Shown: one piece after another, positions 9,361 to 60,514 of the stretch
Position numbering within the stretch: the first letter of the stretch is position 1
How the letters are laid out: each line of letters opens with the position of its first letter
NCBI RefSeq assembly: GCF_042453785.1
Contig: NC_091663.1
Location: 34,770,001-34,834,000, forward strand
Direction: 5' to 3'
Length of the DNA: 64,000 nt
From: Malus domestica
Taxonomy: Eukaryota > Streptophyta > Magnoliopsida > Rosales > Rosaceae
Made by a program: the position numbers and the translations under genes
Notes under the pieces: model-generated
Told to the model about the DNA's origin: nothing
The model's input: only the letters and a program-made list of their open reading frames with translations
The model's database searches: none

Positions 9361-11914
9361 TATTGTATATAAGAAATGTACAGTACAACTGTCTTGTTAA
9401 CATAGTTAAACAAGTGGGTCTGGCTTTCGTTGGATTTACGGGAGCCGAGTTGTCTGTTTACTATTATACCCTAAGCAATTTCCCTTTTGGGCGAACAAGG
9501 ATCGTGTGTGATTATGCAAATCCTAAATTGGAACTTACGTAATCACTTAGTATTACGATATAGTAATATTTTGTTACATTAATAAGTGAAATGTCTTAGA
9601 TTCAATTCTCGGCAAGACGAATTTGAACTATATTAATGCTTATTATATTATGAGGTTAATCACCCCTTCTCTTTAATGTATATAATATTGTTTATTCAAA
9701 AAAAAAATGGAACTTATGTCGTAGCTTCAAGCATAATCCTCATCCTCAAATTATATATATTCATCGTATATCGTGTGATTATAAATTATTTTAAATAATT
9801 TTATTTAAAATTAAACATTAATAATATCTGATAAAAATTAATCGCATAATGTACAAAAGACACAATTTAAGATTTTTTAGAATTCTCACAAAATAAAATC
9901 TGAAGAGGATCCACATTCCACAATTGACTAGAGGAACAAAGATTGGTCACTAAAAATAGTTTTATTTATTTATTGTCCTATCGGTCTTATTACGTCCCTC
10001 TTGATAGGATTGATGGTTCGAAACATGTGTTTATGTAAAAAATGAAAGTGTTGTAGTTGATGTCTTGTCAAACTTGTGTTCGAAGGTAAAGTTGCTTTGA
10101 GGATTCTCAAGATAAAGCAGATTCTCTGTCCTCCTATTTTTTGTATTTTTCTATACTTTTTTATTTTGTGTGATCACGGTTAAGTTATGTCAACATTATA
10201 TATTATTATTATTTTTTATCTTATTATTTTTATAAAAAAATAATATAAAATGTTGACGTGGTTTAACCGTGACCACACAAATAAAAGAGCACAGAAAGTG
10301 AGAGGGCAGAGAATCTGCTTCCTTCTCAAGATTGCTTCTTTGATGGTCACTTGCTTATGAGATTATTGTGAGATTATTGTGCTGAAGTTACTGCATTTGA
10401 ACATTTATCAGCAGTACAACTTTGGACGCTAACTTCATTTAAGTGCAGAAGATGCTTAGTTACACGTATATGTAAACAATGCGAGTAGTTGACTTAGTTT
10501 TTTTTATCATAATCTTTTTTGTTCCTTACTCTTAAACAATACACTCTTAATATTGAGAATGTTAGAGTCACCCAAATCAAATATCCTATGTCTTTGAAAA
10601 AATCAAGTATAGTACGAATTTTTACTTGTGAAACAAACACAACCTATCAATCTATCAATCTTCTTTTTATGGCCATGTATAAATTAGAATGTATTTTCTC
10701 CTAAATTCATGCAAATAAATAAATAAATATATCAATTTGTTGTGGATACCATTGCTTTAAAGGGTCTTTTGTATGTCAGATGCAAGGGGTTTAGGAACTT
10801 AACGATGGAACGGGACTCCAGGCTAGTGATTCAGGCGGTGCCCACCTCAAAACAATTGTGGATGATATTAGATGGCTAGCCTCTGATTTTCATTGCAAAA
10901 GGCAGAACCATATCTTCAAAGAAGCAAACTTTGTGGCTTACATATTAGCTCACTTTGACTTTACTGTAGCGAACTAATATTTTTGGCATTATTGTTTACT
11001 GATTTCGGCCATGAAGAGTTTTAAATTTTTATTTTATTTTTGAACAAGAGAGCTTTAAATTTGATTGTATGGAGACGGTTATATTCGAGATTTCAAATTT
11101 TAATTAAATCTCTTTATTTATTTAAAAAAAAAACCTATATTAAAAAACACAATAAAAACCGATGAGTGATGAGGGCATTTTGGGGAACCTGGATAATTAT
11201 GAATGAAAAAGGTCGGACCCACGAGAGTCTTGCAATAGAATGGGTGGCTAAAATATCGGGTACAAAAAGATAAAGTAAATTAAAAGATAAATAAAAAGAG
11301 TTGTTGGAGGCTTTTTGATTTCTTGTGTAGTGGGTTTGGCAACCTACACGTGTCCATCTTTTTGGGTCGGTCACATAAAGTCACGATTGAAGGCATTTTG
11401 CTCTCCAACTTTAGTAGCATCTATTTTATTATTAAATTATAACTTTAATCTTTTAAGCTATTATGACTTTATTTATTTATTTTTCATATGATTTAATTGA
11501 AATTTTTAATCTTTTACATATATTCTCGTATTAAAAAGGTGAATTGTCATTGGTACTTAAAAATTTTCATTATAAGATGAACAAAAATATATATGGATTA
11601 AGAAAAATAAAAAATAAAAAAATATTTTACAATCAGAAAACCGTATCCAAGCACTAGTCTGCGCTCATTAGACTATAAAAACTTAGCGAGCTGAAACATT
11701 TGAACAGTTAAAGAAAGGGAAATCAACTTAGACCCGTTAGTAACGACAAGTAAAAGCGGATCGGGGGTTTTCGTCTTTTTCCCAACGAATAAATCCCAAA
11801 GTGGGGATCTTTGCTTCGGCGGGTAGGTTTCAAAAGTGAAGCTCCCAAGAAAACATTCCTAAATTACCAAAGTTACCCTTTGAATAATTATAAATGTGAT
11901 ACAATAATTAAAAT
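9361..11914. other. Intergenic with small repeats
   Basis: No gene seen. The stretch at about 9585-9700 has an ttcaattctcggcaa word resembling a Pol III B box plus an A-rich end, so a tRNA-derived SINE remnant is possible. A foldback is listed separately. Confidence 0.5.
10096..10345. mobile_element. Foldback MITE-like element
   Basis: A left arm (about 10096-10200: gaggattctcaagat, gcagattctctg, gatcacggttaa, tgtcaacatt) is mirrored by a right arm (about 10240-10345: aatgttgacgtgg, ttaaccgtgacc, cagagaatctgc, tctcaagattgc). The centre is AT-rich. The arms are about 100 bp each and imperfect. I did not resolve a target-site duplication. Confidence 0.7.
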
Positions 11915-11987
11915 GGGGATGTAGCTCAGATGGTAGAGCGCTCGCTTAGCATGCGAGAGGTATGGGGATCGATACCCCACTTCTCCA
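11915..11987 (+). tRNA. tRNA-Ala (anticodon AGC)
   Basis: 73 nt. The 5' GGGGATG pairs with 3' CTTCTCC apart from one T-T mismatch and a G-T pair, and A73 is the discriminator. The D arm reads GCTC..GAGC. The anticodon stem CTCGC/GCGAG encloses TTAGCAT with anticodon AGC. The T stem TGGGG/CCCCA encloses ATCGATA. It is followed directly by TTTTT, a Pol III terminator. There is no intron and CCA is not encoded, as usual in nuclear plant genes. The acceptor mismatch is the only sign it may be less than optimal. Confidence 0.96.
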
Positions 11988-13137
11988 TTTTTGTTTTTAT
12001 TCCCTTGCCAATTGGCATGCATTATACGACACCGTTTCTTCAGATAGTGAAAAGTCAATCATGTCACCCTCAAACCAAGACTCAACAATGCTAGTTTTGA
12101 GGTCAACAGGGTCATAAAAGTCAAATGAAATTAATTTTTTTAACTTTGGGTCCATTTTAATCAAGTGTAAACAAAAGATGGCATAATCCTTCCATAATTC
12201 CTTTACACTTAATTGTAGTGGTAGGTAACAAACAAGACATGTTCCTTTTAAATATCTTGTCTTTTTTTTTTTTAAATTAAATATATTGTCCTTTAAACCG
12301 ATCTTTGGTACATCTTAGTTATTCATCGTGTATTGTGCGGTCAAAAATCATTTGACTTTTTTTATTTAAAATTAAACACAAATAATATCTAACAAAAACT
12401 GGTCGCACAATGTATGATAAACGCGATTAGAATGTGGGGATCAAAGTGGATCCGGAGAGGATCATCTTCCACAATCTTTGTCCATTTTTTTCTCTGGTGT
12501 TGGTCTTATATTAATTTTACTAATTAAAATACAGTTTTAATAATACCCTTGTGGTTATGTTTTAAATTCAATTTGAAAACAAATACTTTAATTCAAGAAT
12601 GGTTTAAAGGTTACCACTAAAGGAGGGACATATGGCTAAGTCTCACAATGAACTAGCGCTAATGTGGTTCAAATTCACATTTACGATAATCGAACCTAAG
12701 ACCTATCACTTACAAATAAAAAGGAATATCACTCTACCATAATACAAAGTGGCTTAACCAAGTTTAAATACTTTTAAATGACTTTCACTATTTTGGATGG
12801 AGAGATAACTTGTAACTAAGATTGATAAAAAAAAATTGTATGTGTTTTTGTTTATACAAATAATAATGGGTAACGAAATGATATCAGATGTAACTACAAG
12901 AGTAAATCCTCTTAACCACGAAAGTGATATTAAGGGTTCTTTAGTGGGCTAAAAATTGGATTCAAACAATCCATTTGGGATCTATGTTTAATCTACAACA
13001 ACATGGGCATTTTAGGGCCCAATTTTTACAACTTGCTGCAAATTCCCTCATTAAATTATTACTTTTGCAATTTAGCTGCAAGAAGCAAACTGTGAACAAA
13101 GTTGAATCCAAATTCTTCTTCAACTTCTTCGCTGCAG
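11988..13137. other. Intergenic, no gene seen
   Basis: AT-rich spacer. The words near 12300-12480 (Tcatcgtgtattgtgcggtc, a gtggatccggagaggatc block) resemble those at 9760-9920, suggesting a diverged dispersed repeat. Confidence 0.4.
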
Positions 13138-13166
13138 AAAAAAAAAAAAAAAAAAAAAAAAAAAAC
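13138..13166. repeat. Poly-A tract upstream of the HSP20-like gene
   Basis: Roughly 28 A residues (TTTT on the minus strand) immediately before the ATG at 13176. It falls within the expected leader of the disrupted gene. Confidence 0.9.
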
Positions 13167-13380
13167 CAGTAACCCATGAAGAAGAAAGTCCACCCTTCGT
13201 CCCAAAAGCGTAATACGTTATACGACGTCGTGACATCCTCTTCCACGCCGCCAAAGAAGCTCGGAAGACTCCCCCACCTGTTCGCCAGCGTCCTCGAGCT
13301 CCCCTTCCACTCAAACGCCGACGTTTCCATCCAAGAAACCTCTGACTCTTGCATTTTCTCCGTCTCCATGCCCACGCATG

Positions 13381-13599
13381 TATTAAGGGTAAAAATGTAA
13401 TACAGTTAGTAATATAGTTAGGTAGTTAGTATTTGGTTAAAGTGGTTAGAATTTCTATATAAACAGTATGTGTAATCTTCATTTGATTAGTTAATATACA
13501 AATCCTATTTCTCTTTCTAATATCTCTGTGTTCATCATTCTCTTCATCCATTGTTCTTGATTTTCCTTTCAATTCCCAACCATTGCAATGTAGTTAACA
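13381..13599 (+). repeat. 5' LTR (219 bp)
   Basis: Contains TTTCTATATAAACAG, a TATA box about 75 bases in, which should drive transcription into the interior. It is identical to the 3' LTR by eye. Confidence 0.92.
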
Positions 13600-14199
13600 T
13601 GGTATCAGAGCCACCAGGTTTACGCCATTGATTCTGGTGGTTCCGTATTTTCTTTTAGATTTCTTTTTCTAGTTTTATTTTCTCTTCAGATTTTCTTGAA
13701 TTTTTCGTCTAAGTTCTTTGGTGTTTCCTTCTTCTCTCTGATCCCTGAACCAGAGAAGGAAGCAGAATCAAGTTCTTACTCAGTTTTTTGTGGATGCGAA
13801 TCGACTGAAAAACGTCGTCACTGACCTCGTTGATTTCAACTGGGTTTTGGTCGGTAACAACAAGAATTTGGTCGGAGCTGGAGTTGTAGGGGTCGGATTC
13901 TCGACTTCTTGGCGGTTGATTGTGCTCTTGAGAGGCGAGGAAGGCAAGATTGACCAGGCGAAAAGAACGACGTCAATGCCGTGATAATCTTTTCCAGCTG
14001 CAGCGGTTAAGCTGCGAGACTCAAAATCTGGGTCGCGTGTTTGGTGGATTTCGAAAGGACGAACAAGTTGAGACTTGGAGTTGGGCAATGAAAAAGAAAT
14101 GGGATTTTGCCCTAAAACGAGACAAGATATCCGAGCCGTACTCTCGCCGAGATGCGAGTCCTTCTCTCTGATCCTCAAGATCTAGCTGTGCAGCACGCA

Positions 14200-14490
14200 C
14201 CCCGTCTTCTTCCGACCGAAGCATTGCACGGACTCGATAGCTGAGGCCGCCATGGTGTTGCTCTCTAGGGTTTGGGGTCTTCTTCGTCGTCCCCCGCCAC
14301 TATCGCCCCACCGACCTCGGCGACTCCATCTCTTTCAACGATCCCACGCTATCCTCCTCCTGGTTCTCCGTACACAGATTGCGCAGTGGCGTTGTTGTTA
14401 GGGATTTTGTTTTGGTCCAGGTGTTTCCCAAAATCTTCTGCTTCTTGTTCGCTGCAGTCCAGGTATTTGACGAATTGCCCAGCTCAGAAT
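14200..14490 (+). other. Possible captured gene fragment inside the LTR element
   Basis: GC-rich relative to the LTRs, with GTGTTGCTCTCTAGGG, codon-like texture and a GTCCAG|GTGTTT-like junction. One frame stays open for about 85 codons from 14272 and another overlaps it. I do not recognise the product. It may be host sequence picked up by the element or simply its own leader. Confidence 0.25.
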
Positions 14491-14954
14491 TTTCATGTGA
14501 ATGTTAAATCTTTCAGCCACTTTTTCTGAATTTCAAGATTCTTCATTTCAAGATCACTGTTCGTGATATTTGGGATATTTGGATTCAAGAATATTGGTTA
14601 TTGCTAGATTGTGCAATTTGTATGATGGTGTCCAGTTCTATCTCTGCTTCATTGAAATTCTGCTCTGTTTCTCTTGTTGGGTTTGATGTTTATGCAAATC
14701 TTGATATGTTTGGAGAAATGGGTATGGATTCTTGGGTTTGATTGCTACTAATATCTTTAGGGTGTTCATTGTCGAATTACTCAGGAAGTTTGCAATATCC
14801 AATTATTGTCTCTCTGTTTCACTGATTTTCTGCAATTATGTTGAGGAGTTTGTGCAGTAATTTTCTCTTATCTCAGCCTATAATGTCGAGTCTAACCAAC
14901 TCAGTTGTTAGTATGAATCTACAGTAAGTCCAGTTATACGATGAAGTTTGAAGA

Positions 14955-15240
14955 AGTTGTAAACGGTAAATCCCACGAAGGTTAATTCCGTGTTTTGAGT
15001 AGGTAAATCCCACGAAGGGTAATCCTACATAGATGTTGATTTTCAGTTGTTGAAATTGTGAAGGCCGATGCCATTGTTCGAAGTACTTGTTTTTTGATAA
15101 AATCCACAAAGGGCGATCCCGTGGTACTATAGTTAAGGTCGATGCCACACTATAGTTTGTTAATTTTCTGTTTTAAAGGCCGATGCCAATGTTAAATAAA
15201 GTTGATGACGGTAAATCCCACGAAGGGTAATCCCGCAAGG
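14955..15240 (+). repeat. Interspersed short repeat in the LTR interior
   Basis: The words AATCCCACGAAGG(G)TAATCC (about 14964, 15004, 15211) and AAGGCCGATGCCA (about 15060, 15176; variant at 15134) alternate. They lie in untranslated interior and are not in a protein frame. Confidence 0.7.
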
Positions 15241-15838
15241 AATTGTTATAACCGGCATGAGGGTGTGTTACAACTTTATAAGAGGCTATTCTTAATTTGC
15301 CCACTCGAAATGTATTAGGGGAACTGATAGATTGGAGACTGTTTCTTCAAGCAAGAAGCTTTCTGTGGATTGTTGTCAGTACAACAGTGAGACAATGGGG
15401 CTAATTCGGAGGAAAAGATTGAAAAGATTGAGGTCAGGATTCTAGCAATTTGCAAACTCACAAGTGGCTGAACAAGAAAGATGTTACTTGAAAAGCCAAC
15501 ATTTAGAGAAATCGGCTCATATGGAAAATTTTAATGGCCTTACTCAGGATTGTATTACATCGACAAGGGCGAAACTTTAAAAAGCCAACAGTCTAGAAAA
15601 CCAGGAACAGAAGAAAGTTCTCGTCGCCATGTTCAGAAGAAAGTTTGAAGCAGTAGATTTCCCCAATCGAAAATGGTGTCCTGAGATGTGATTTCATCAA
15701 AAACAGCCTTTCAAGTTTCAAGTGATTGCAAGACTGCAGATGATTCAACTCTGTGTTCTGTTTTCTGATTTCATAACAGTGATTGCAGTTGTTCTTCCAA
15801 TCTCAAACTGGGTTACCCCAGTTGAGATTGAGGGGGAG

Positions 15839-16057
15839 TATTAAGGGTAAAAATGTAATACAGTTAGTAATATAGTTAGGTAGTTAGTATTTGGTTAAAG
15901 TGGTTAGAATTTCTATATAAACAGTATGTGTAATCTTCATTTGATTAGTTAATATACAAATCCTATTTCTCTTTCTAATATCTCTGTGTTCATCATTCTC
16001 TTCATCCATTGTTCTTGATTTTCCTTTCAATTCCCAACCATTGCAATGTAGTTAACA
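15839..16057 (+). repeat. 3' LTR (219 bp)
   Basis: Same length and, by eye, same sequence as 13381-13599; preceded by the polypurine tract at about 15824-15838. Confidence 0.92.
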
Positions 16058-16602
16058 GCATGTGCCGTCGCCCGCCACCCAACGAATAACTGGCGACCAC
16101 GCTGCTGTCCGGGCTTACACGATAGAGATTTATCCCGGAGTGACAAAGACTGTGATAAGGAAAACGGACGGTAGTGATTTGTGGTGGTTGGACGGAGGAG
16201 TGGTGGACGATCTTGATCTCTGGAGGTATCGGCTGCCGGCTTCGACGAGACCGGAGTTGGCCAGGACTACGTGTACTGGGGAAAAGCTGGTTGTAACAGT
16301 TCCGACGAAGAGGAGGTTTTGGGTGAAGAAAATGGGAGGCTAATTCTTGTGCAATAATTAATATTTCTCTTTCAAGTTGGAATATCTTGCTATAATAATG
16401 CATATGAACGTTTCGAGATCAATTTTTCAAAATTATTTGTTATTTGCTACAATATGTTTTGCATATATATGAATATTGTAATATTCATGTGTGATGAGTT
16501 TCAAAATTATCTTCATGCATGCTTGTGGAGACATGAAGTTAATCATAGTATGAATAGTAGGCTCTGTAGAGGCGTATCTTAAATCTCTCATATACTGAGT
16601 GG

Positions 16603-18048: not shown

Positions 18049-18381
18049 AAAGTTCTTATAATGGTTGTATAAAGACGTACACCGACCCAAGTCCAAGTGT
18101 CGCCGGAGATTCTGTTCAACATGAAACATGGCGTCCACCTGTGAGCTATATCCAAAACCTTCATTCTCCATCCGCCACCTGTATACTTGAAGAATCCTGC
18201 CGTTCAGTTCTCACTTATCCCAATCCGTACTCATACATATTCATCCTTCCTCAACAAATTTCATATATATATATATATATATATAGTTAAATATTTTGCT
18301 TAATTTGGAACGTACATTATATTGCACTACTTGTAAAATAATATTCTAAGTAACCTAATCTGTCATATTCAAGCCCAAAAC

Positions 18382-20220
18382 ATGAGCCAGGGACAGCCAC
18401 AAAGACGCCGACCGGACCAGTCCGAGGTTCAGGAACCCATAAAATACGGAGACGTCTTCAATGTCTCCGGCGAATTGGCTGACAGGCCCGTCGCGCCACG
18501 CGATGCCGCCACTGCCCAAGCTGCTGAAAACCTAGTCCTTGGAGAGAATCCGAGGGGTGGCCCAGCTGCTGTCATGCAGTCGGCAGCTACGTACAACGAG
18601 CGCTTTGGCCTTGTTGGCCACCTTGACTCCACTAAAGTCGCCCGAGAGGAAGGCGTCACCGTTACTGAAACAATTAATCCCGATGGCAACCGGGTTGTCA
18701 CTGAAAAAGTTGCTGGACAGGTATATATTTTTCTATTTCAATTTGTATTATTGTTACAAGTTATTTTCGTTTGTTCTAGTTCCAACGTAAAACCGTATTG
18801 GTTACATAGAAAGGAGTCTTACTTCGTAAGCACATAAAGAGCACATGTCACACGTCATTTTATATGTATCACGATCAAACATGCATGTTGCGGGATTCTC
18901 ACATATAATAGTAGAAGTTAACCTGCTCTGATACGATAATCACAAAAAGTCGAGTATTAAGAGTAACTCAACTCTTTTTGTATATCTAATTGTCGATATA
19001 AAACTAATTAGGGATATTGACAATAACTAAAACTCTTTATAAGTACATGTAATTTCTCTAATTTCCCATCGGATCTCAACAGATAAGTTAGCAATTTTTT
19101 CTTTAACTTTGTACATATGTTATCTTCAGATATTTTACATGTTGTGTTTATTTTCTGTCTCACACTATATTTTAAGAATATAAGAATTGGAACATCTAAT
19201 TGATAGTGAACGTTGTTGGCTTCAAAAAACAAAGTGAGCGCTTATGTATATGTATATGACTGTATGTATTGGTTACCTTCGTTTGAAGGTTGTGGCCCAA
19301 TATGTGGAGCCACCGGTGCCAATGGCATCTCCAGGAGGAGCGCTTGATCGAGATGCTATTACAATTGGTGAAACGCTGGAGGCCAGTGCTCTGACGGCAG
19401 GAGACAAACCAATTGAACAAAGCGACGCCGCTGCAATACAAGCTGCTGAAATGAGAGCCACTGGACGCAATGAGATAGCACCCGGAGGTGTGGCGGGTGT
19501 AGCTCAGTATGCAGCCTCTGTTAACCCGCGCGACGTCAATAAAACGAAACTTGGTGACGTGTTAGAGGTCTTAACCTCCATGAAAGAATCGCAAAATTGA
19601 AGAACACAGAGAAGCTTAGAGGGAAGAAAGAAAGTATTTCTGAGAAAATCCCAACAGTTATTACAACTCAATCTTATCTAATACAAGGAAAATAATATTC
19701 TATATGGTCAGTTCAACATACAATGGCTTATATCCTAAGCTACTGCTGATATGGCAGTTTTAATGACCTGGCACATATTCAATACACCTGGGCATATATA
19801 TCCAATACTCCCCCTCAATCTTAGCTGGGATAGGCCAGCTTAAGATTGAAACAATGATGAAGAAAAGCTGGACCATGAAGACCTTTGCTGAGAACATCAG
19901 CAACCTGGTCTTTTGTTGAAACATATTGAATCACCAAGTCTCCTTTTTATATCCAATAAGAGGTACAAATTAACATTTAATTTGGTACATCAGTAATTAT
20001 GTTTAACATTCTAGGGTGTTTAATCAATTTCGTTTTTCTTTTCGTGAAAATAATGCAGGATACAACTGAGAAGTTGCCTGCGGACAAACCTGTGACTAGA
20101 GAGGATGCAAAGGCGGTGATAGGAGCAGAGATACGGAACAGTACAAATATGGCCACCACTCCAGCCGGAGTTGCTGAATCGCAGGCGGCAGCTGCTGGGC
20201 TTAACCAGAATGGGGAATAA
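18382..20220 (+). CDS. LEA protein, seed maturation protein (SMP, D-34) family
   Basis: Three exons, 18382-18720, 19289-19567 and 20059-20220, all meeting in phase 0 at GT-AG sites, give 259 residues, the usual family size. There are three SMP units: residues about 17-75 (PIKYGDVFNVSGELADRPVA, then an AATAQAAEN helix), about 125-190 (DAITIGETLEA..DKPIEQSDAAAIQAAEMRATG) and about 207-259 (KPVTREDAKAVIGAEIRNS). The protein is Ala/Gly-rich, hydrophilic and without signal peptide. SMP proteins accumulate in drying seeds and protect cellular contents against dehydration; that is family knowledge. Unspliced translations stop early in both introns. Intron 2 contains an antisense Copia remnant but the splice sites are intact, so the gene is likely functional. 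Confidence 0.93.
19580..19940 (-). mobile_element. Copia retrotransposon 3' remnant in LEA intron 2, antisense
   Basis: Minus-strand reading from 19940 gives the last 39 codons of a Copia polyprotein RNase H region (VSTKDQVADVLSKGLHGPAF is part of it), ending at TAA 19823-19821. A polypurine tract (AGATTGAGGGGGAG) follows, then an LTR starting TATTGG at 19807 and running to about 19580. The remainder of the element is missing, so it is 5'-truncated. Confidence 0.85.
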
Positions 20221-32555: not shown

Positions 32556-40550
<7,995 letters not shown>

Positions 40551-41030
40551 CTCTCACCGTACACCTTAATCCCAGAAAACCCACTTCAGCTTTGAACTTA
40601 ATTACACAAACCCAACAGCTAGAAAGCTTCTCTCTCAAGAACTAACCCTACCCTGTAACCAAAAATTAAAGAAAATATTTATTTAAAAATATATACATAC
40701 ATAGATATATGAAATCAGTGATGTCTTTGAACGTGTACGGACTGACCAGATCACCAACCGCGACAATGGGTTGAAGAAGGCCCCAGTCAATGCAAGCAGA
40801 GACACAGGAGATATTCTGATGCCTCCCTCACGAGCACGTGCGCGGCACGTAATCCAGTAGCTTCAGCGATTCAGCCATGGTGCTTTGTGAAATTGGGAAA
40901 GGAATTGAAGGAGTTCAACGGGAGGAAGAAGAAGAGAGACGGACACAGAGGGGGGAGAGAGAGAGAGAGAGAGAGTTGTTGATTGAGACAGGAAGCCTTG
41001 GGGCTTGCAAGGTTTAAGACAAAAGCTTTC
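40551..41030 (-). promoter_or_regulatory. Leader and promoter of the PHD/GNAT gene
   Basis: A CT-dinucleotide tract (GA on the plus strand, about 40957-40976) marks the probable leader. Upstream of it are long T and A runs. A leader intron between about 40815 and 40620 is possible. Confidence 0.4.
40828..40878 (-). other. Candidate upstream ORF of the PHD/GNAT gene
   Basis: On the minus strand, ACCATGGCT is a good start context and opens a 16-codon frame (MAESLKLLDYVPRTCS) ending TGA, about 330 bases before the main ATG. It may be an upstream ORF that limits translation, or part of an alternative first exon. Confidence 0.4.
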
Positions 41031-41159: not shown

Positions 41160-43203
41160 TTTTTTTTTGTCACATGGCCGTAAGTCCTTTTCGCATAGGA
41201 CCTTTTTCTATTAATTAATTAATATCTACATGATCAAAATGTTTTTTTTGTCTCCTTAAAAATATCAGAAAAAAAAAAACATGAATCGCTTATGAGTCAA
41301 ACCTTGTTGTTCAAAAGGAGGGATGTTCAATTGTTAATTCATGGAGTATTATATCAATTTACATAAAATATTTTTTGGTTCGAAAAGTACTTGAAGTGCT
41401 TAAGTGCTTCCTACAAGTTTCTTAGGCCATCTCCAACCAAAGGGTCCATAGGGCCAGAGGGTCAAAAATAACCCGAAAACCGTCTCCAACCAAGTGCTAA
41501 GCCAGAGGGCTCTGGAATCTGGGAGGGCTGGAGGGCTGGCTGCATGCAGCCAGCCAGCCCGAGGCTAGCCTTTTTTTTTTAATGTTTTGTTATTTCTATC
41601 GGTTATAGCCGACATGAATACATTATATTACTTAATATAAATGTATTACTGTCGGTTATAACCGACAGTAATACATTTATACTAAATAAATTTCTTAAGA
41701 AAAAATTCAAATGCAACGGCTAGTAGCCGTTGCATTTGATTTTTTTTTTATAGTTTTATTATTATTTTTTATTTACAAATTTTTTTATATAACTTCTATT
41801 TTTTCCTATAACTTTATTTTACAAAATTTGTTTCATATTTTTTTAAAATTCCATTTTTTCCTATAACTTCTATTTCACAAAATTTATTTCATTTTATTTT
41901 AAGTTGTAGTTTTTAAATAATAAATTATGTTTGGCCTTATGGCCCTCTGACCCTCGGTTGGAGACGGTTTTTTGTGACAGGGCTAAAACGAGCAATTTGG
42001 CCCTCTGGCCCTCGGTTGGAAACGGAGGCAAATATGGTCATGTACTGTTCATTAAAATATTAATATCTTTGAGGATCTTGGAGGGCCAGAGGGCTAAAAC
42101 GAGCCATCTGGCTGCCATCGGTTGGAGATGGCCTTACATGCTTCTTATAGGAAGCACTTCAAGTGCTTTTCAAGAATTTATTTATATTTTTACTAAGGAT
42201 TGGTTTAAAAATATTTTCACAAAAAACGCTTAAAATACACTTCTAAACAAGCTCTTAATTATCTTTCTTTTGAGTTATGCTCCTTTGTTTGAAGATTTGA
42301 AGTAACTTTTGAGATCTTACTAATTGGTCAAATTATATTAAATGGATTTTAATCTGTTATTATTAGCCTTAAACGTTAATGTTTTTAGCACTTCTTTTCT
42401 TGATTTTATTTGATTTATTCAATTTAAAAGTTGTATAAATAAATAATGATTGCATGGAGAGAGAAAAGAGAGTGCACAAATAATGAAACTAACAAAATAC
42501 ATCCATGCATCTACCATGCAAAATAAAAAGGCAACTAGGTCTCCATTTGAGAATGTTTACGTAGAAAACCCACGATCGCTTTTATCAGAAACACATTGAA
42601 TACTCATGCAACATAATAACACAATTACGCCTAAATATTTCTAACTTTTTATGTCAAATGTTGTCGATACGTTTTTTTTATGGGAATTTTAACGAAAATT
42701 TTTTGGTACTGTTTACTTTATGTTGTCCTTATCGTTAAAACTCAAAGTTTTCAAGTCTTTTTCATTAATTTTTTTATAGGAAAATTAATTAAAAGGGCTT
42801 GAAAACTTTGAGTTTTAACGATAAGAATAAAATAAAGGGTAAAGTGAATAGTACTAAGATTGACTTTTTAGTGTAAAAATGTAATTTTTCATTAAAATGA
42901 ACAGTACCAAGAACTTTTGGTTAAATTTCCCTTTGTTTATCATGTGAAGCACTTTTAGCCATGCACGTAGTTACCAAGTTGGACGTTCATGCTCATCAGC
43001 TTAAGCATGAGACATGACATTCAGGAGAACCATGTACAATTGTACTAAAGCCAGTAAATAAATGGTGGTGCTATTTACACACCTCTGTTTATCTCTCATG
43101 CATTTTTTGTTAATTTATGTCTTTTGATCAGTTTGATTCACTGATCCGAGAGTTGAAAATTTAAAAATGTGTGAAAGATAAAAAAAGGTAGTGTGGATAG
43201 CAC
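41160..43203 (+). repeat. Segmental duplication, copy A
   Basis: Begins after a T run with cacatggccgtaag. It matches 56040-56327 plus 63055-64000 in the same orientation, apart from copy-specific insertions. Shared landmarks are catgaatcgcttatgagtca, aaccttgttgttcaaaagga, the AAGTGCTT block and agcacttttagccatgcac. Confidence 0.85.
41425..42133. mobile_element. 709-bp PIF/Harbinger-type MITE rich in palindromes
   Basis: TTA duplications lie at 41422-41424 and 42134-42136. The ends are GGCCATCTCCAACC and its exact inverse GGTTGGAGATGGCC. A second inverted pair, ACCGTCTCCAACC (about 41478) and GGTTGGAGACGGT (about 41957), sits inside. Hairpins: GGCTGGCTGCATGCAGCCAG near 41535-41560, a paired tcggttatagccga/gtcggttataaccgac set at 41598-41670, and a 31-base near-palindrome centred near 41724 (arms CAAATGCAACGGC). 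A 3-bp TTA duplication fits PIF/Harbinger. Copy B of the duplication lacks it. Confidence 0.88.
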
Positions 43204-43344
43204 CAGTGGCGGATTCAAGAAAAATATTTCGGGGGTCACATGTAAAAGTTTACAAACATTTCTTAAACATATAATAACCTTAAAAATTAAACCATAGTTC
43301 CATCATTCAAAACTTATCGAACAAATAACAATACAAGTTAAAAT

Positions 43345-43591
43345 AGTTCCCAACGCGTTTTCATATTTTGAAAATGTCGCATTATAGCTTCATTGTCAAT
43401 GGAAGAAAGAAAATTGCTCTCAATATAAACCACCATGATATCACTCAACCATTGATCTCCCATTCGGTTACGCAATAGTCTTCACAATATTTATAGCAGA
43501 ACAAGCTCTCTCCACTAAAATAGTACAGTAGCAACAGGTAGAACCAAAGCCAATGCAATTAGCAAATACACATGATTATGTACTCTATTCC
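43345..43591 (-). pseudogene. hAT transposase C-terminal relic, duplicate copy
   Basis: The same relic as 44840-45079 in the first tandem unit, with an added frameshift/stop at the VERA motif region. It ends at the ATTCC target site (43587-43591) next to the long-LTR start. Confidence 0.8.
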
Positions 43592-44056
43592 TAACACACC
43601 CCGACCCGGGATGTCCATTAGGACTCCAAATCAAGCTGTGTTGGCCGACACCTGGAATGTGACGAAGCCATAAAGTGTAATGATGTGGAAGATGTGAATA
43701 AATTTAAACCTAAAAGTGCATACGTACAAGAGTGTGCGGTGAGTTGGTATGAGCCCATTTCATACGTGATGACAGAGCATAAGTACAATACAGTAAAATA
43801 AGGTGAGAATTATACCATTGATGGTAATTGTCTACTCCAAGATTTGCCAGTAATTCTCGTCGGTACGAAAACTCTGCTACTAGAACCTGGAGGGGCAAAA
43901 AATAAGGGTGAGTGGGTCTAAAAATAAAGTTTTAATAAAAACCTTTTGAAAACGTTATAACCCCTCGTCGTAAAACCTGTATAATTTTCAGAAAATAATA
44001 CTACATAAGTACAAAAACGAATGCGTGAGTGCAGTGAAAATAGAAGCATGCCATGC
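43592..44056 (-). repeat. Truncated copy of the long LTR terminus
   Basis: The first 465 bp (plus-strand order) of the long LTR, starting TAACACACCCCGACCCGGG, copied by the tandem duplication. Confidence 0.9.
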
Positions 44057-44839
44057 TATCACTTTTTCTAACTTTTTAGGTCAAATGTTGTCGATACATT
44101 TTATTTATGGGAACTTTAACGAAAAAATTTCGGTACTGTTTACTTTAACGAAAAACCACATTTTTACACTAAAAAGTCAATCCTGGTACCATTCACTTTA
44201 ACCTTTATTTTGTCTTTATCGTTAAAACTTAAAGTTTTCAAGCATTTTTCATTAATTTTCTTTTTTTTTATAGGAAAATTAATGAAAATAGCTTGAAAAC
44301 TTTGAGTTTTAACGATAGGAATAAAATAAAGGGTAAAGTGAATAGTACTAAGATTGACTTTTTAGTGTAAAAATGTAATTTTTCATTAAAGTGAACAGTA
44401 CCAAGAGTTTTTCGTTAAATTTCCTTTTGTTTATCCTGTGAAGCACTTTTAGCCATGCACGTAGTTACCAAGTTGGACGTTCATGCTCATCAGCATAAGC
44501 ATGAGGCATGACATGCAGGAGAACCATGTACAATTGTACTAAAGCCAGTAAATAAATAGTGGTGCTATTTACACACCTCTGTTTATCTCTCATGCATTTT
44601 TTGTTAATTTATGTCTTTTGATCATTTTGATCCACTGATCCGAGAGTCGAAAATTTTAAAATGTGTGAAAGATAAAAAAGGTAGTGTGGATAGCACCAGT
44701 GGCGAATTCAGGAAAAATATTTCGGGGGGTTACATGTAAAAGTTTACAAACATTTCTTAGACATATAATAACCTTAAAAATTAAACCATGGTTCCATCAT
44801 TCAAAACTTATCGAACAAATAACAATACAAGTTACAATA

Positions 44840-45079
44840 GTTCCCGACGCGTTTTCATATTTTGAAAATGTCGCATTATAGCTTCATTGTCAATGGAAGA
44901 AAGAAAATTGCTCTCAATATAAACCATCATGATATCACTCAATCATTGATCTCACATTCGGTTACGCAATATAGTCTTCACAATATTTATAGCGGAACAA
45001 ACTCTCTCCACTAAAGCAGTAGCAATTGGTAGAACCAAAGCCACAATTAGCAAATACACATCATTATGTACTCTATTCA
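44840..45079 (-). pseudogene. hAT transposase C-terminal dimerisation relic
   Basis: Minus-strand reading gives a hydrophobic YLLIALALVLPIATALVERV stretch followed by CSAINIVKT and a Arg-Asn-Arg-Met end. This is the conserved end (VERAFSAM-like motif) of the TTF-zinc-finger type hAT transposases. It is continuous in frame with the fragment at 54589-54205 once the retroelement between them is ignored. Stops follow shortly after. Confidence 0.82.
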
Positions 45080-46181
45080 TGACACACCCTGACCCGGGAT
45101 GTCCATTAGGACTCTAAATCGAGCTGTGTTGGCTGACACCTAGAATGTGACGAAGCCATAAAGTGTAGTGATGTGGAAGATGTGAATAAATTTAAACCTA
45201 AAAGTGCCTATGCATAAGAGTGTGTGGTGAGCTAGTATGAGCTCATTTCACACGTGATGACAGAGCATAAGTACAACACAGTAAAATAGGGTGAGAATTA
45301 TACCATTGATGGTAATTGTCTAACCCAAGATTTGCCAGTAATCCACGTCGGTACGAAAACTCTGCTACTAGAACCTGGAGGGGCGAAAAATAAAGGTGAG
45401 TGGATCTGAAAATAAAGTTTTAATAAAAACCTTTTGAAAACGTTATAACCCCTCGCCTTAAAACCTGTATAATTTTCAGAAAATAATGCTACATAAGTAC
45501 GAAAACGAACACGTGAGTGCAGTGAAAATAGAAGCATGTCATGCCAAAATATCTCAGCAATAATAAGTGTAAGCCAGTTGTGAAACCAATATAAAATAGT
45601 ATGTCAGTCGGAGTCACCTAACGTGACTTGTACGACTGAACCTGTAGCTCATCAGTCTAGGCTAGCACACGCGTCGAAGTCACCTAGTGTGACCTATACG
45701 ACAGGCTGGGTATAAATATGTACTCTCAAGTGCTACGATCACGTGAAAGTTGTGCGATAAATCGCGGGTCACTTACGAGTCGGAACCCCTATTATGGTTT
45801 GGACGACAGGCTGGCACCAAACTTGGATCAAAGGTGAGCATGCGGTGCGGGAGGTGAACAATCACGTGAATGTTGGCCTTAGCCCTGGGCGGGAGCACTA
45901 ATACCGGGGTGCAGTCGTGATGAGCTCTAAATAAACGTGTGCATACCAATGCAATACAACCCATTCAATCACATAATACTCACCTGAAACTTACCTAAGT
46001 CTTCTCAGTATCACACAATACAATCACAATTGTAACAATGCAATATTTAAAAAGTAACTACTTGCCTCCATAGGATTATTTGACATAACCACAAATCTCA
46101 TCATAATGCAATATATATAACACATTTAAATCATGGCATGTTATGCATAAACAATTTAAAACATTTCTGGAAAACTGCAAG

Positions 46182-46222
<41 letters not shown>

Positions 46223-47586
46223 ATAAAAAGGAAAAAGACCCACTCACCTGAGGTATGCGCTACAACTCCCTAGCACGAATATTGAGGTATCACGAACGAT
46301 CGATGCCTAGAACAATTATCAATCACGTCTCAGAATTATTATAAATAGTACATGTAACTTACATATCCTATTCGAGAAGATCCGTATGTCGGATTCCCGA
46401 TTTGTAAGTTACTGATTTCCTCAAATATTATGTAATATAACGTATCAAAGTTTGGTGACGATCTAACAGTTGAATCGTCCATTGCTATAATAATCAAGCA
46501 GCGGACCTTAATGGAACTAGGTTCAAACGACGGAAATTTGTCAATCGAACTTCACGTATAGAATTAGAGAATCAAATTTAGCCTAGGGAGATCAGGGAAT
46601 GTCTTGGCCCAGGCACCGCCGTACACGGCGGTTGGCGGCCCCGAGTCGCTGAAAAAATCAATTATTTCTAAAAATACTCAAACTTCACATAAATGAATAT
46701 CTCAGTGAGTAGAGCAAGTTTTATACATATGGTCAAGTCCAATTTGGTCGGGAAATGCCTCAATTTCACTAAAACCCATTGAAACCCTAGAAATGGGTGA
46801 ACCTCGATTTTTCCTGTCCAGTGCTCCAACATCCCAAATCTTGTTTGGGTCTTGTTAATGGGCTAAAAAAAAGCTGGAGGATGGTAGTGGTCGACGAAGG
46901 GGCTTGCAGAAACGACGGATTTCGCCGCCATGGCTCGGGACATCCACGACACAAGTTCGTCAGGAAACAAGGCCAATTCCTCTCGAATTTAGGTGGAAAA
47001 CCAAAGAGGGAGTAACGTAATGATGATTGGTGAGGGTAGATTCTCTAAATTTGTCGGAAATTTGATGAATTTCGCCTGAAAAATCAACCGGGTCAAGTAG
47101 GGATGTCGGGTCAAGGGGGAACCGGTTCGGTTCCCCTCCTTCTTCTCTTTCATGCATTCCCTCCTTTCTCTCTTCTCTGATTGGTCACCATCTCATCTCT
47201 TTTTTTCTTCTGATTCCCTCATATTTCCCTCATTTCTCTCTTTTAACTATCATCTTCACCACCCATCTTTTCTTCCTTTTAATCTGGGCCACACACTTGG
47301 CTTTCCAGATTTTGCACCAAAAATATGAAGCTTTCTTGAAATTAGTTAATTTACTAAAATGCCCCCAAATTTAAACGTTAATATCTCATTCGTTATAACT
47401 CTAAATTGCATTCTATTTGCCCCCACACATCCGTAGCAATGAGTACTAGGATACGCCAAGAAAACGAACCTTACGTGACCTGACAAAATGGTCAACAAAA
47501 GTCAACGTCTTTGCCTCGAAGGGTATTTCCGTAAATTCACATTTAAAATTTATAAAGATTGTAATTTTTTGGTACGAGTCATTACA
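45080..47586 (-). repeat. 3' LTR of the LARD-like element (2507 bp)
   Basis: Aligns along its whole length with 51803-54199, with many substitutions and indels. It contains a (GT)n run at 46184-46220 where the partner has a mixed TA/CA run. Starts TGTAATGAC on the minus strand. Confidence 0.9.
46184..46220. repeat. (GT)n microsatellite
   Basis: About 18 GT units inside the left LTR. Confidence 0.95.
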
Positions 47587-50500
47587 ATCTACCCTCTTTA
47601 AGAAAATTTCATCCCCGAAATTTAAAATAACTTGCTAAATGTAAAATACTTGAAAATAGGGAGAAAATATGTATGTAAATACATACACAAGGAAGAAATC
47701 GAGTTAGAGTGGCTGCATAAAAAAGAATGTCATTCCATCGCGATCAGATTGCAATTATTCCTCTTTCATGCCTCCAAGCTCATACATTCTTCATTCCTCG
47801 ATAGTATAGTAGTGTAATACCCGTATAAACCGTAAGGTTGAAAACACCAATTATTATGTAATAACATAAGGAAAACAAAATATACATATAATAAAATATC
47901 AAATATATATATATATAAACGTACGTATATATATATATATATAAACGTACGATTTAAATACTTGTATTGAGTTTAAAACCAAGAGTGGAAATAACTCACC
48001 CAAAATTTGTAATGGCAAAATACCCATATAAATAAAATAATATTGTAGAAAAATATTTTCATGAAAAATAAAAACCCAACATTTAAGCCATTGATATTAC
48101 AATTTGCAGCATGTAATGCCGATAACTCATCGTTGTCTCAATAAGCTAGTGAGAAGTTCCTGAGGATGCCAAAATATTGTTTTGCTCCTCATGTGCGAAT
48201 ATGCCTAGATCGTTCGATTCCTGCCTCGATCACGATATCGTACTATCCTAGAAAGTACCAAACCAGTTGCTAGAAGTGTTTCGATGTCCACGTTCCCACA
48301 ACAATAAGACTCTGGAGTGAAACAATGGAAATATACGTAGAAACGAACACATATTGCGAAAAGCTTCCTTGGTGACTAATCACTAGAGTTGTTCTCCAAA
48401 TCAAAGGTTATAAGATCTGAAAGCTTAAATTAGAGAAACCATATCTCTGACGACATTCTTCGAATGACAGTTGCAGTTTTGAGCCACACTTGAAAATTAA
48501 CGCCACAATCGCCAAGCTTATAACCTACGTTCATACTTTCACCAATATCATGCTGAAATACAACTCAATCTTTAAAGCCGCTTGGAATTTTTTCTTGGTA
48601 AGTCTGGTAAACTCGCAAGAAGATTATACTCCAATGGTTACTACTAGCATCGATATGAAACTGCTGCACACATCTTCTGAGTCGACCTATCGTGAATTCC
48701 CCACTGATTGAGTGAGAAACCATGTTGAGAAGGCTAAAAGAACACTCAAGGATTTGAGAGTCAAAACAAGTTCATCAAATTTAAAGTTCAAAATATCTAG
48801 ATTGATTGTCTACCATCACATTACAAAAACAACTTCCGGAATATTCAATCACCAATGGTAACGATCCATTCAACGGAGTATTTGACGGGTGATTGAAGAA
48901 TTAATGATCACAACTAGATTTCAATATCCGAGCAATTCTTCTGAACAGTCTACCTGTCTTCGAAATAATACGAACTGCAGTACAGTAGACACGTACCCAA
49001 AGTTGACTAGAATGTATTTCCAGCACAAAGGAGTGACTATGGAGTCATAGTTAGAAAAGATGTTGATCAAAATACCAGAAAATCTGATAAATTCAAGAAT
49101 GGGTAATTTTACCAAGTGGTCTAAAATGTAGTCCCTCTGAACCAATGAAAAATGGGTTGACTTGTCAAATCGATATATAAACATCGAAACACCATCATAA
49201 TCTCCACATGTACAAGATACCTCGTACTAGGAGTTTATGGTGATATTTCCCATTTGCATTTAGATACAAAAAGTGATTTAACCATTCAAACGATTTCTTG
49301 ATGGGGTAGAGGTAACATCACATCGATACTCATGAACTTCAACTAGAATGGGATAAGGAAGACTTAAAATGTTTAAGGGTAGGACCAACTCTTACTACGG
49401 TGCTTAATAATTACGTTTGCATAACTAGGATGATTCACAATAGTGCAATCATAGACGTTGATTTAGTTCTTCCAATGTTGCTGTCAGAAACTTAGCTCTT
49501 TGCAACAGTAAGTGAAATTGGGAAGTTCTAACGTTAATAAAGATTTTGGACATATTTCTTCACAGAGAAGTACCATTCGGTTTTCAGATGAAAATGACAA
49601 CTGCTGACTCTAGGTCATATGTATGATGGTTCATTTTGAACAGTTATACCGTTGGGAAATGTAAGCGATAATCCATCATACTACCTCTACACAATTGAAA
49701 TATCCAAGGAACACGTCATCATGGATTTCCAAAATGATCAATGTCATCAAAAAGTGTAAAGTGATGGTGAGGTGAGAACAATAGTTCGGTTGTCAGAAAC
49801 TTTATCCATAATTAACACCCCAAGCTTAACTAATTTATATTGGTCGATAATGAGGAAAAACACTATAGCCGAAAATCGCTAACCAATTGTCAATAAACTC
49901 GACAAGACTAAGGATATCTTAAATCTCACAACACTTTGTGAGAATTTCAACATTTTTCCTCTAAAACCTTTTTTGGAAGAAGGAAAGAATATTGTCCGCG
50001 AAGATCACGTCTCCCGAGATAAGTACTAATCTAAACAAAACTAATGTTTGAGAAATTTGGTCTCATTGCTGAAACTTATGAGAAAATCGTTGAAAAGACT
50101 ACTACGAAGTCGCCAAGTTATGGAAGAAAACTCGAGTTACAAAAGGTGGGTTGGCTAGATCATCAACTCGAAGTAGGGGACAACAGTTTGTAGTCGTCAC
50201 CTGAGGAAGTTGCTAAAATCTAGGTATGATCCTAAGGTTCGAAGTTCCTGGCTAAAGGGCTTGGTTGAATAAATTTCTAATCGGTAAGCTTTAGTAACTA
50301 AGTTCTTCCAAACGGTAGGAGTTGCTCGAAAAGACGCAAGGAAAGTAGTGTAGTATGAGAATGTGGATCGATGATAATATCTCAGGTAAGACTTTGGAAT
50401 ATGACGCCTGAATGTACGACCTCAAAACGTACCATAGTACTTCCTCTCACTATGCCATATGCTAATAGGTCTTCACTGCTTTCCCGATACTTAATTCACT

Positions 50501-51802
50501 CTAATAATGAGAAATTAACTCGTACTTCGCTTTTGCAGTTTGCCTCTCGTACTTCGCTTTTACAGTTTGCCTGTAGAAGTGATCGAAAAAATGGCTAGTT
50601 GAAAAGGTTATGTTTATCTATATAAGTGATAAGGTAAAAACAACTATGAGCTTACTATCCTAATACAAAGCTTGCTCTTAACTTTCCGAGATTTAGTTTC
50701 TTCGGCTGCAGCAATCACTGTTAATCAGTCTATTAGTCGCGCGCTAATTAATGGATTTATGACATTTTGATATTATTCGTTACCCTGAAACTGTGAACCG
50801 ACATTCTAGTATAAAGGTATCAATCCCAGATACCAGCACATGTGTCCAGTATTAGAAATCATACCGTTCGAATACTGGTTGACAGTTCCTGGATATCGGA
50901 CAATATCGTCAATTAGTAGCGCCATCATAAGCTGATTACAAACTAGAGCCCACTCAAGTGGGTGGTTTTTGGACGATTGATAAGGAACTGGTCTTGTAAG
51001 GGGGTTCCATAATTGTAGGGGAAATACTCATTACTTCAATGATTTTATACTAATCATAGGTATACCAACTCGTATTTTGGTGCCTATACTCATCGAAATG
51101 ACGAGTACATCACCAAAAGAAATTTAGAAACTCGTATTGGTTAAGATGTCCCAAAGTCGGAAAGAATAATTTACTAATAATCTACTTTAGAACGGGCTTA
51201 AACGGAAATTGATCTTTCTCCTAAAGATCTGAAATGATAATTAGTGCGTTTAAGAATATTAGTACTATCGGGGACTAAAGTGACTGTCCCCTAGATGTTT
51301 CTTTCGTTAAGTGCTACCACTTTAGCACCAGGTTGTTGCTCAAAACAATTTTTTTTTTTTGAATCTTGTCGAAGTAAACTTCGTAAGAATCCTAATAAAT
51401 GGTATGCTAAAAGGTATTGCCAAGGAATCAAAATTAGTTCTGGTTTCCTATCTTGAAAAGATTGATAATGATGGCTTGAAAATAATGATGGGATTGATTT
51501 ATAGTTCCCTGGTGATACACCGTTATCGATACATTAGTCCTGCTTTAGGGCCATCAACTTGTCTCAAACCTACATCTTTCCTTAGTAGGGAAGTTCTTCG
51601 CTTTAAGCCTAAAAGCGTTCACCAAAGTGACCTTCTAAAATGTCGACAAGTCAACAAAACGGCCCAAAACTTAGGAAAAGTTAACACATTTTTTGTATTC
51701 GACAAGGTGGCAAGATTCGAACATTAGGCTCAAGAACTGAGAATGCTTACATCACGTGTGTGATGAACGCAATATTGCCCAACTTATGCTCTGATACCAA
51801 AC
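47587..51802 (-). other. Interior of the LARD-like element, no gene recognised
   Basis: 4.2 kb with only short frames on either strand. The longest (51359-51727, plus) is antisense to the element and has no family features. Two copies of a taTATATAAACGTACG word lie at 47905-47950. Confidence 0.6.
51783..51801 (-). other. Primer binding site of the LARD-like element
   Basis: TTTGGTATCAGAGCATAAG on the minus strand; TGGTATCAGAGC is complementary to the 3' end of initiator tRNA-Met. Confidence 0.85.
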
Positions 51803-54199
51803 TAACACACCCTGACCCGGGATGTCCACTAGGACTCCGAATCAAGTTATGTTGGCTAACACCTGGAAGGTGACGAAGCCATAAAGTGTAGTGATGTAGA
51901 AGATATGAATAAATTTAAACCTAAAAGTGCCTAAGTACAAGAGTGCGCGGTGAGCGGGTATGAACCCATTTCACACGTGATGACAAAGTATAAGTACAAT
52001 ACAGTAAAATAGGGTAAGAATTATACCATTGATGGTAATCGTCTACCCCAAGATTTGTCAATAATCATTGTCGGTACGAAAACTTTGCTACTAGAACCTG
52101 GAGGGGCGAAAAACATGTGTGAGTTGGCTTAAAAATAAAAGTTTTAATAAAAACCTTTTGAAAACTTTATAACCCCTCGCCTTAAAACCTATATAATTTC
52201 CAGAAAATAATACTGCATAAGTACAAAAATGAATGCATGAGTGCAGTGAAAATAGAAGCATGCCATGCCACAATATCTCAGCAATAATAAGTGTAAGGCA
52301 GGTGTGAAACCAATATAAAATAGTATGCCAGTCAGAGTCACCTAACGTGACCTGTACGACTGGACCTATAACTCATCAATCTAGGCTAGCACACGAGGCG
52401 GAGTCACCTAGTGTGACCTATATGACAGGCTGGGTATAAATATGTACTCTCAAGTGCTACGATCACGTGAAAGCTATGCAATAAATTATGGGTCACCTAC
52501 GAGTCGGAACCACCTATTGTGGTATGTACGACAGGCTGGTACCAGACTTGGATCAAAGGTGAGCGTGCGGTGCGGGAGGTGAACAATCATGTGAAAGCTG
52601 GCCTTAGCCCTGGGCGGGAGCACAAATACCGGGGTGCAGCCGTGATGAGCTCTAAATAAACGTTTGCATACCAATGCAATAAAACACATTCAATCACATA
52701 ATACTCACATGAAGCTTACCTGAGTCTCCGCATCATCACATAATACAATCTACAAGTGTAACAATGCAATATTTAAAAAGTAACTACTTGCCTCCGTAGG
52801 ATTATTTGACATAACCACAAATCTCATCATAATGCAATATCTAAATATAAGACATTTAAATCATGGCATGCTATGCACAATCAATTTAAAACATTTCTGG
52901 AAAACCGCAAGGTATATATGTGTATATATATGTATATATATACACACACACACACTATAAAAAGGAAAATGACCTACTCACTTGAGGTCCACGCTACAAC
53001 TCCCTAGCACGAATATCAAGACGTCACGAATGATTGGCGCCTAGAACAATTATCAATCACGTCGCAGAATTCTTATAAATAGAACATGTAACTTACATAT
53101 CCTATTCGGGAAGATTCATACGTTAGATTCCCGATCTGTAAGTTTCTAATATCCTCAAATATTATGTACTATAACATATCAAAGTTTGGTAATGATCCAA
53201 CGGTTGAATCGTCGATTGCTATAATAATCAAACGGCGAACCTTAATGGAACTAGTTCAAACGATGGAAATTTGTCAATCAAACTTTACGTACAGAATTTG
53301 AGAATCAAATTTAGCCTAGGGAGGTCAGGGGATGTCTCGACCCACGCGTCGTCGTACACTATGGTTGGTCGCCCTGACTCGTAGTGGTCAAGTCTAATTT
53401 GGCCGGGAAATGCCTCAATTTCACTAAAACCCGTCAAAACCCTAGAAATAGGTGAATCTCGATTATTCCTCTCCGGTGCTCTGATGTCCCAAATCTTGTT
53501 TGGGTCTTATTACTAGGCTCAAGATGAGCTGGAGGATGGTAGTGGTCGACGGATGGGCTTGCAGAAACAACAGATTTCATCGCTGTGGCTCGGGACACCC
53601 ACGAAGCAAGTTTGTTGGGAAACAGGGCTAATTCCTCTCAAATTTAGGTGGAAAACCGAAGAGGGAGTAATGTAATGATGATTGGTGAGGGTGGATTCTC
53701 TCAATTCATCGAAAATTTGACGAATTTCGCCTAAAAAATCAACCGGGTTGAGCAGGGTTGTTGGGTCAAGGGGGAACTGGTCAGGTTCCTCTCCTTCTTC
53801 TCCTCCTTCCATTCCTTCATTTCTTTCTTCTCTAATTGGTCACCCTCTCATCTCTCATTTTATGATTCCCTCACCTCTCCCTCCTTTCTCTTATTTAACT
53901 ATCATCTCCACCACCCATCTTTTCTTCCTTTTAATATTGGCCACACACATGGCTTTCCAGATTTTGCTTCAAAAATCTGGAGCCTTCTCGAAATTAGTTA
54001 ATTTACTAAAATGCCCCCAACTTTAAACGTTAATATCTCATTCATTATAACTCCAAATTACATTCTATTTGCGCCACGCGTCCGTAGCGACAAGTACTAC
54101 GAGGATACGCCAAGAAAACGAACCTTACATGACATGACAAAAAGGTTAACAAAAGTCAACGTCTTTGCCTCGAAGAGCATTTGGGGACGGGTTGTTACA
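51803..54199 (-). repeat. 5' LTR of the LARD-like element (2397 bp)
   Basis: Minus-strand start TGTAACAACCCGTCCCC and end GGGTGTGTTA. Divergence from its partner is visible in every line compared, so the insertion is old relative to the element at 13381. Confidence 0.9.
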
Positions 54200-57148: not shown

Positions 57149-57545
57149 ATAAATCAAAACTGCACATGTATAAATCAAAACTGCACATGTATAAATCAAA
57201 ACTGCACATATATAAAAACTGCACATATAAGTAAAACAAAACACACATACACACACATACACACACAGAGAGAACATACACACACACACACAGAACATAC
57301 ACATATACACACACAGAACATACACACATACACACATACACACACACACGCACAGAGAACATACACACACACGCACAGAGAACATACACACACACAGAGA
57401 ACATACACACACACAGAACATACACACATACACACACATACACACACATAACATACACACATACACACATACACACACAGAACATACACACATACACACA
57501 CACACACGCACAGAGAACATACACACGCACAGAGAACATGTGAGC
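57149..57545. repeat. CA-rich minisatellite array
   Basis: About four 20-base units with AAAACTGCACAT (57149-57235), followed by about 300 bases built of ACACACATAC and CACAGAGAACATAC words. It stays open in several frames on both strands, which produces spurious Cys/Val- and Thr/His-rich frames. Confidence 0.95.
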
Positions 57546-60286: not shown

Positions 60287-60514
60287 TCTCTCACACCTCA
60301 CGGCAGTGCAGTCGTCGATTCAAATCAACCAACTTCCCACTTTTAGCTTCTACTCGTCGTTTCAAATCATCTTCCATTTGACGAAATCGCAGTAAAGGTC
60401 GTCGCTTTTTGGGGTTTTGGGTCAGTATTCAGGAAACCCAGTTCGAATTTGGATCGGGAAAGGTCTGTCGAATCGCAGATCCGTTTGCGGCCAGTTCGAA
60501 TTTGGATCGGGGAA

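Follow-up and report, generated by a model that had tools for sequence, protein, structure and literature searches.

This locus raises the question of what a retrotransposon insertion did to the gene copy that it entered, and of the state in which that copy was when it was entered. The locus lies in a 64-kb stretch of the apple (Malus domestica) genome (contig NC_091663.1, positions 34,770,001 to 34,834,000; 37.5% GC, zero N), hereafter the window, in whose coordinates all positions are given. It comprises a gene copy for an HSP20-like protein and, within its coding sequence, a long terminal repeat (LTR) element. An earlier note on this DNA had claimed that a recent, non-autonomous LTR insertion breaks an otherwise intact HSP20-like gene. 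The best explanation overall, to which we assign a probability of roughly 0.82, is that a non-autonomous, probably copia-derived LTR element interrupts codon 69 in a Malus copy of an HSP20-like gene. The insertion itself is an ordinary kind of event; the details that are new here are an antisense piece of a ribosomal protein gene inside the element and a splice geometry that would keep the reading frame of the gene.

The insertion and the empty-site reading frame

The element spans 2,677 bp (13381-16057) and is bounded by two LTRs (13381-13599 and 15839-16057) that are the same at 219 of 219 bases and are each preceded by a common G; this pair is the longest exact direct repeat within the window, and the runner-up is 115 bp. 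The identical LTRs and the GCATG target site duplication (TSD) described in the earlier note are thus found at the positions it gave. A primer binding site (PBS), which we take to be of the initiator Met tRNA type, stands immediately 3′ of the 5′ LTR and a polypurine tract (PPT) immediately 5′ of the 3′ LTR. Paired direct LTRs, TSD, PBS and PPT, by which LTR retrotransposons are recognized, are therefore all present, and because of the placement of the PBS and PPT the element has plus orientation, which is that of the gene, as had been proposed. Both LTRs start with TA and end with CA and depart from the usual TG...CA; such ends are usual, not strictly required, and, all remaining features being present, we take TA...CA as a one-base variant. 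That the occupied site is an assembly artefact or a mis-joined haplotype has a negligible probability in our estimate: we found no point to support it, and against it stand the perfect TSD, the exact placement of PBS and PPT and the continuity of the frame across the site. The features are as follows.

13176-13380, plus: upstream portion of the HSP20-like reading frame (codons 1-68 plus one base of codon 69), with TSD copy 1 included (joined frame open; P0001, described below, 96% identical over 100%)
13376-13380, plus: TSD copy 1, GCATG; its last G and the first T of the LTR form a potential GT donor
13381-13599, plus: 5′ LTR, 219 bp, TATTAAGG...TTAACA, with TATATAAA at 13456 (219/219 identical to 15839-16057)
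13600-13611, plus: PBS-like TGGTATCAGAGC
14203-14253, minus: captured antisense start of the host uS9/RPS16 reading frame, MAASAIESVQCFGRKKT (phmmer against PDB)
14266-14273, minus: AAACCCTA motif, 12 bases from the uS9 start
14954-15235, plus: internal repeats, a 37-nt family (D2) present three times (68-100% alike) and a 23-nt family (D7) present three times
15799-15825, plus: likely remnant of the C-terminal end of a Ty1/copia pol, NLKLGYPS* (like NLKLAYPS*, which ends the fragment at 19821-19943 minus)
15798-15830, plus: hairpin reaching the first PPT base (RNA fold of 15795-15842, z -3.58, 1 of 200 shuffles as good)
15830-15838, plus: PPT, GAGGGGGAG
15839-16057, plus: 3′ LTR, 219 bp, with TATATAAA at 15914
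16058-16062, plus: TSD copy 2, GCATG; the final CA of the LTR and the first G of the TSD form a potential CAG acceptor
16063-16343, plus: 3′ part of the HSP20-like coding sequence, with the shifted tail TKRRFWVKKMGG* at its end

The element separates the first base of codon 69 from the other two. When the flanks are fused at one GCATG, they form 486 nt, or 161 codons, with a sole, terminal stop, and the remaining five frames of the joined flanks have 9, 5, 2, 3 and 1 stops. Indeed, the two halves keep one frame across GCATG, as the earlier note had it. A run of 28 A's (13138-13165) lies ten bases upstream of the start codon.

The empty site is also represented among known proteins. P0001, an annotated Malus sylvestris protein of 162 amino acids with a cluster of 10 member sequences, is 96% identical to the joined protein over its full length and runs uninterrupted through the insertion site. 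Because P0001 is continuous there, one Malus genome or more must carry an allele that lacks the element, and the predicted empty-site allele with an uninterrupted frame is in this way borne out. We considered whether P0001 could be a gene model that splices round the insertion with one intron. None of the splices tested (single GT/GC-AG and AT-AC introns with the first base in 13330-13799 and the last base in 15000-16119) reproduces its sequence at the site, and we rejected this reading.

The gene is HSP20-like by remote homology. Pfam reports 0 families on the joined protein. We aligned 11 of 87 homologues with the joined protein (alignment A1), and separately 58 of the 87, selected by judgement with regard to their length and diversity and with P0006 left out (alignment A2). 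Among these 58 relatives, 4 match PF00011 (HSP20), the best at 0.00022. Their profile, compared with PDB, finds 11 sequences at E ≤10, of which 10 are small heat shock proteins, the best match (E 0.0043) being an 18.1 kDa class I heat shock protein. These remote similarities suggest that the gene copy is HSP20-like, in agreement with the original assignment.

A probable copia derivative carrying a ribosomal protein gene piece

We defined internal open reading frames (ORFs) of the element from stop to stop at a length of at least 50 amino acids (n = 21), and scanned 20 of them with Pfam, that at 14982-15149 minus being left out. In these 20 of 21 ORFs no family reached the cut-off, and no gag or pol domain was found; a few matches fell below the cut-off (for example SAYSvFN, E 0.0092, 16.2 of 25 bits), which we take as chance. 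With LTRs, TSD, PBS and PPT present and no coding domain at the cut-off, the description of the element as non-autonomous holds.

What seems to remain of coding sequence suggests copia. NLKLGYPS* reads directly upstream of the PPT, and a fragment at 19821-19943 minus, by its motif presumably the end of a copia pol, reads QVADVLSKGLHGPAFLHHCFNLKLAYPS* followed by the same PPT. The element and the fragment at 19804-19943 minus are 84% identical over 45 bp, with NLKL[GA]YPS* common to both. This fragment, like a copia pol C-terminus with its PPT, lies beyond two ORFs for seed-maturation proteins (SMP; 18337-18837 and 19238-19600). A pol with integrase before reverse transcriptase, by which Ty1/copia elements are recognized, was not found in the 20 of 21 ORFs scanned. 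The absence of a pol domain therefore allows the element to be filed at most as a copia derivative and not as a copia element: it is probably one from which gag and almost the whole of pol have disappeared, leaving a likely relic of the last pol codons, and it would have been copied in trans by proteins that a related autonomous element supplied. The same bases form a hairpin in the element (z -3.58, 1 of 200 shuffles) and in the 19804-19943 fragment (z -2.28, 5 of 200), and two stem pairs are altered on both sides, although a pair of sequences that also code in part is too little to demonstrate selection on the RNA.

The element resembles the terminal-repeat retrotransposons in miniature (TRIMs) in its short LTRs, in that no coding capacity was found, and in a TSD within 4-6 bp. 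It differs in size, 2,677 bp being over the TRIM limit of 1,500 bp (PMC4717578), and in that a single copy is seen in the window, within which we found no second copy. The LTR pattern gave 0 matches in viral contigs, and no paper on this element was among the literature matches listed, which does not imply that none has been published. TRIMs are reportedly polymorphic among apple varieties (Antonius-Klemola et al. 2006).

Within the element, 14203-14253 minus encodes MAASAIESVQCFGRKKT, the start of the ribosomal protein uS9/RPS16. Of the four PDB matches listed by phmmer for this piece, the top three are uS9 (40S chains; best E 0.0048) and the fourth is Mdm2 (E 1.3). AAACCCTA sits 12 bases upstream of the uS9 start, and telo-boxes of this kind are typical of plant ribosomal-protein genes. 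Host sequence, in the form of this short uS9 piece, is thus found inside the LTRs, as in gene-carrying LTR elements. By these similarities part of a host gene appears to have been taken up by the element, antisense to it, perhaps by template switching. Bs1 of maize and other gene-carrying LTR elements similarly hold a piece of a host gene (PMC7264820, PMC13317346), but the uS9 piece here is antisense, and captured pieces are described in a review as usually in sense (PMC7264820). Further captured genes in 13742-13984 (best PDB match E 1.3) and 14241-14507 (best PDB match E 0.63) are unsupported. Nor did the literature matches listed include a paper on an apple element with an RPS16 piece, although one may have been published.

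The gene copy before and after the insertion

Translation of the occupied allele would run through 68 codons of the gene, a Val codon that gene and LTR share and five codons of the LTR before it meets a stop, for a total of 74 amino acids. This stop falls before five of the eight strands of the predicted alpha-crystallin-like fold; judged by this model, the occupied allele very probably makes no working protein. As a query, the 74-residue reading found a single protein, P0006, which is not the truncated form, so that this search revealed no further proteome that carries the insertion. Loss of the gene, as claimed, is not established by the sequence, since splicing at the edges of the insertion might preserve the frame. 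The suggestion that the promoter of the element drives a truncated transcript of the downstream half may hold for an RNA; a protein is unlikely. If transcription is assumed to start 30 bases past the TATA of the 3′ LTR, the first AUG (16046) opens one codon, the second (16060), to which the TSD contributes, lies in a different frame from the gene and gives 9 residues, and the 3′ half has a single in-frame Met, at position 159 of the 161 residues. With no usable in-frame AUG before residue 159, we reject translation of the downstream half from this assumed start.

Splicing would rescue the gene in part if the element were removed as a chance intron. The edges of the element give GT...AG, and excising 2,679 nt keeps the frame, adds one His and yields a computed product of 162 amino acids with no internal stop. 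ONSEN, which we take to be a copia retrotransposon, offers a parallel as an exonic LTR element whose ends may be used as splice sites: a full-length exonic copy was intronised in Arabidopsis (PMC12112155). Introners in other eukaryotes take splice sites from TSDs (PMC9860276). The donor here (CAT/GTATTA), however, is off the plant consensus at -1, +4 and +5, only 55% of the 29 bases preceding the acceptor AG are pyrimidine, and a transcript would presumably have to pass two LTRs with likely 3′ end signals. Exonic ONSEN copies, moreover, were seldom removed in full and mostly yielded element-gene transcripts whose ends were alternative ones, and the proof there came from cDNA, whereas here splicing is a possibility seen from sequence alone (PMC12112155). 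Because the donor is weak by that consensus, we regard removal of the element as quite unlikely.

Whether the gene was otherwise intact, as the earlier note had stated, receives a divided answer. The 161-codon frame is open, but its C-terminus is shifted relative to the family, and is so in P0001 also. The last residues are TKRRFWVKKMGG in the window copy as in P0001, unlike 57 of the 87 homologues, which end in [VIG]Q, and a tail of the family type, EEEVLGEENGRLILVQ*, can be read in another frame of the window DNA (16230-16400) over the same bases. The simplest reading of these sequences is that a small deletion shifted the frame in the common ancestor of the window copy and P0001, before the insertion.

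The shifted tail could also mean that the two halves are a pseudogene that is open by chance and was dead before the insertion, which would then have been without consequence. The tail is common to P0001 and the window copy, and P0006 (M. domestica, 116 amino acids) is another odd variant, with the middle part missing. Six substitutions and one indel separate the window copy from P0001, and at three of these sites P0001 agrees with most of ten other relatives against the window copy: G30 (R in 9 of 10), C59 (F in 7 of 9) and Y87 (H in 7 of 9). Against this, the 161-codon frame is fully open, and P0001 is an annotated protein whose cluster has 10 members. We consider prior death of the gene a possibility of some substance, though on the unlikely side.

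The preferred reading is that of an insertion into a changing duplicate, the gene copy belonging to a set of several. P0002, a Malus baccata protein with 79% identity, keeps the family tail. It is encoded on the same Malus baccata contig (40,492,859 bp) as P0089, a paralogue of the IDM1-like gene that neighbours the HSP20-like copy in the window, and P0088, the 98% match of the neighbouring IDM1-like protein, is encoded on a Malus baccata contig of 37,455,759 bp. The location of P0002 and P0089 on one contig therefore suggests a partner block of the apple genome duplication, and suggests, but does not prove, that P0002 is the genome-duplication partner of the gene copy. Thus the insertion probably struck a duplicate in which change had already begun, and a more complete copy lies elsewhere. 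The order of events would be a C-terminal tail shifted out of frame, probably before the insertion, and then insertion into codon 69, which cut the frame to 74 amino acids, the probable duplicate elsewhere keeping the tail.

The neighbouring gene, at 32556-40553 minus, is an IDM1-like PHD/TDBD gene (increased DNA methylation 1 family) read as two ORFs that probably form a single gene, and its coding sequence contains tandem repeats of 120 bp and 171 bp; P0088 is the closest relative of its PHD protein (37656-40553). IDM1 works with the HSP20-like proteins IDM2 and IDM3. We dropped a link between the HSP20-like gene and this gene 16-24 kb away, there being no evidence for IDM2 or IDM3 identity. 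Elsewhere in the window are long, diverged direct repeats, perhaps older LTR elements or other repeats, at 42716-45544, 45082-54182 and 56328-63031 (for example 1,351 bp at 93%, 1,579 bp at 88%, and 315 bp at 97.8% between 56328 and 62717), an AC-rich simple repeat of ~290 bp that is open in several frames (57241-57531), and a tRNA-Ala (AGC) identified by ARAGORN and Rfam (11914-11988 plus).

Age, polymorphism and implications

Zero differences over 219 bp set a 95% upper age of 0.53 My at 1.3e-8 substitutions/site/year, 0.98 at 7e-9, 1.71 My at 4e-9 and 2.74 My at 2.5e-9. The earlier note had the gene lost very recently; the insertion is recent, as the identical LTRs indicate, but a bound of 0.53 to 2.7 My is far older than cultivars and does not establish recency at the cultivar level. 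In apple, ∼31.9% of the intact LTR elements of one cultivar are unique to it and not in Golden Delicious, the mean insertion time is 0.8 My, and 12.05% of these insertions are within genes, although genes account for 22.22% of the genome sequence (PMC6445120). Similarly, in a 13-accession apple pan-genome, transposable elements form 71.31% of presence/absence variants, with coding sequence the rarest site (PMC10651928). By analogy with these published data, the insertion may well be polymorphic between cultivars. It shares with redTE, which lies upstream of MdMYB1 in apple, the identical LTRs and 5-bp TSD, but redTE is gypsy-like, measures 4,097 bp with LTRs of 1,274 bp, is upstream of its gene and has a reported effect (PMC6445120), while the element here, a probable copia derivative, interrupts coding sequence and is not known to have an effect.

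As a young retrotransposon allele in a fruit-tree genome, the element is usable as a presence/absence marker, and its antisense uS9 piece, if present in many copies, could yield small RNAs against a ribosomal protein gene. The splice geometry has a wider bearing. By our own reasoning, splicing of any T...CA element at a GNNNG TSD leaves three extra bases, and the frame is always kept. It is conceivable, although we think it very doubtful, that a general rule follows, in which a T...CA LTR element at a 5-bp GNNNG duplication is a ready-made GT...AG intron and the apple allele an early instance. Such a rule is a simple, countable prediction on which exonic LTR insertions stay spliceable, GNNNG sites being 1 in 16 insertions if bases are equal and independent. 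If the rule were true, exonic insertions at GNNNG would be milder and could steadily supply new plant introns.
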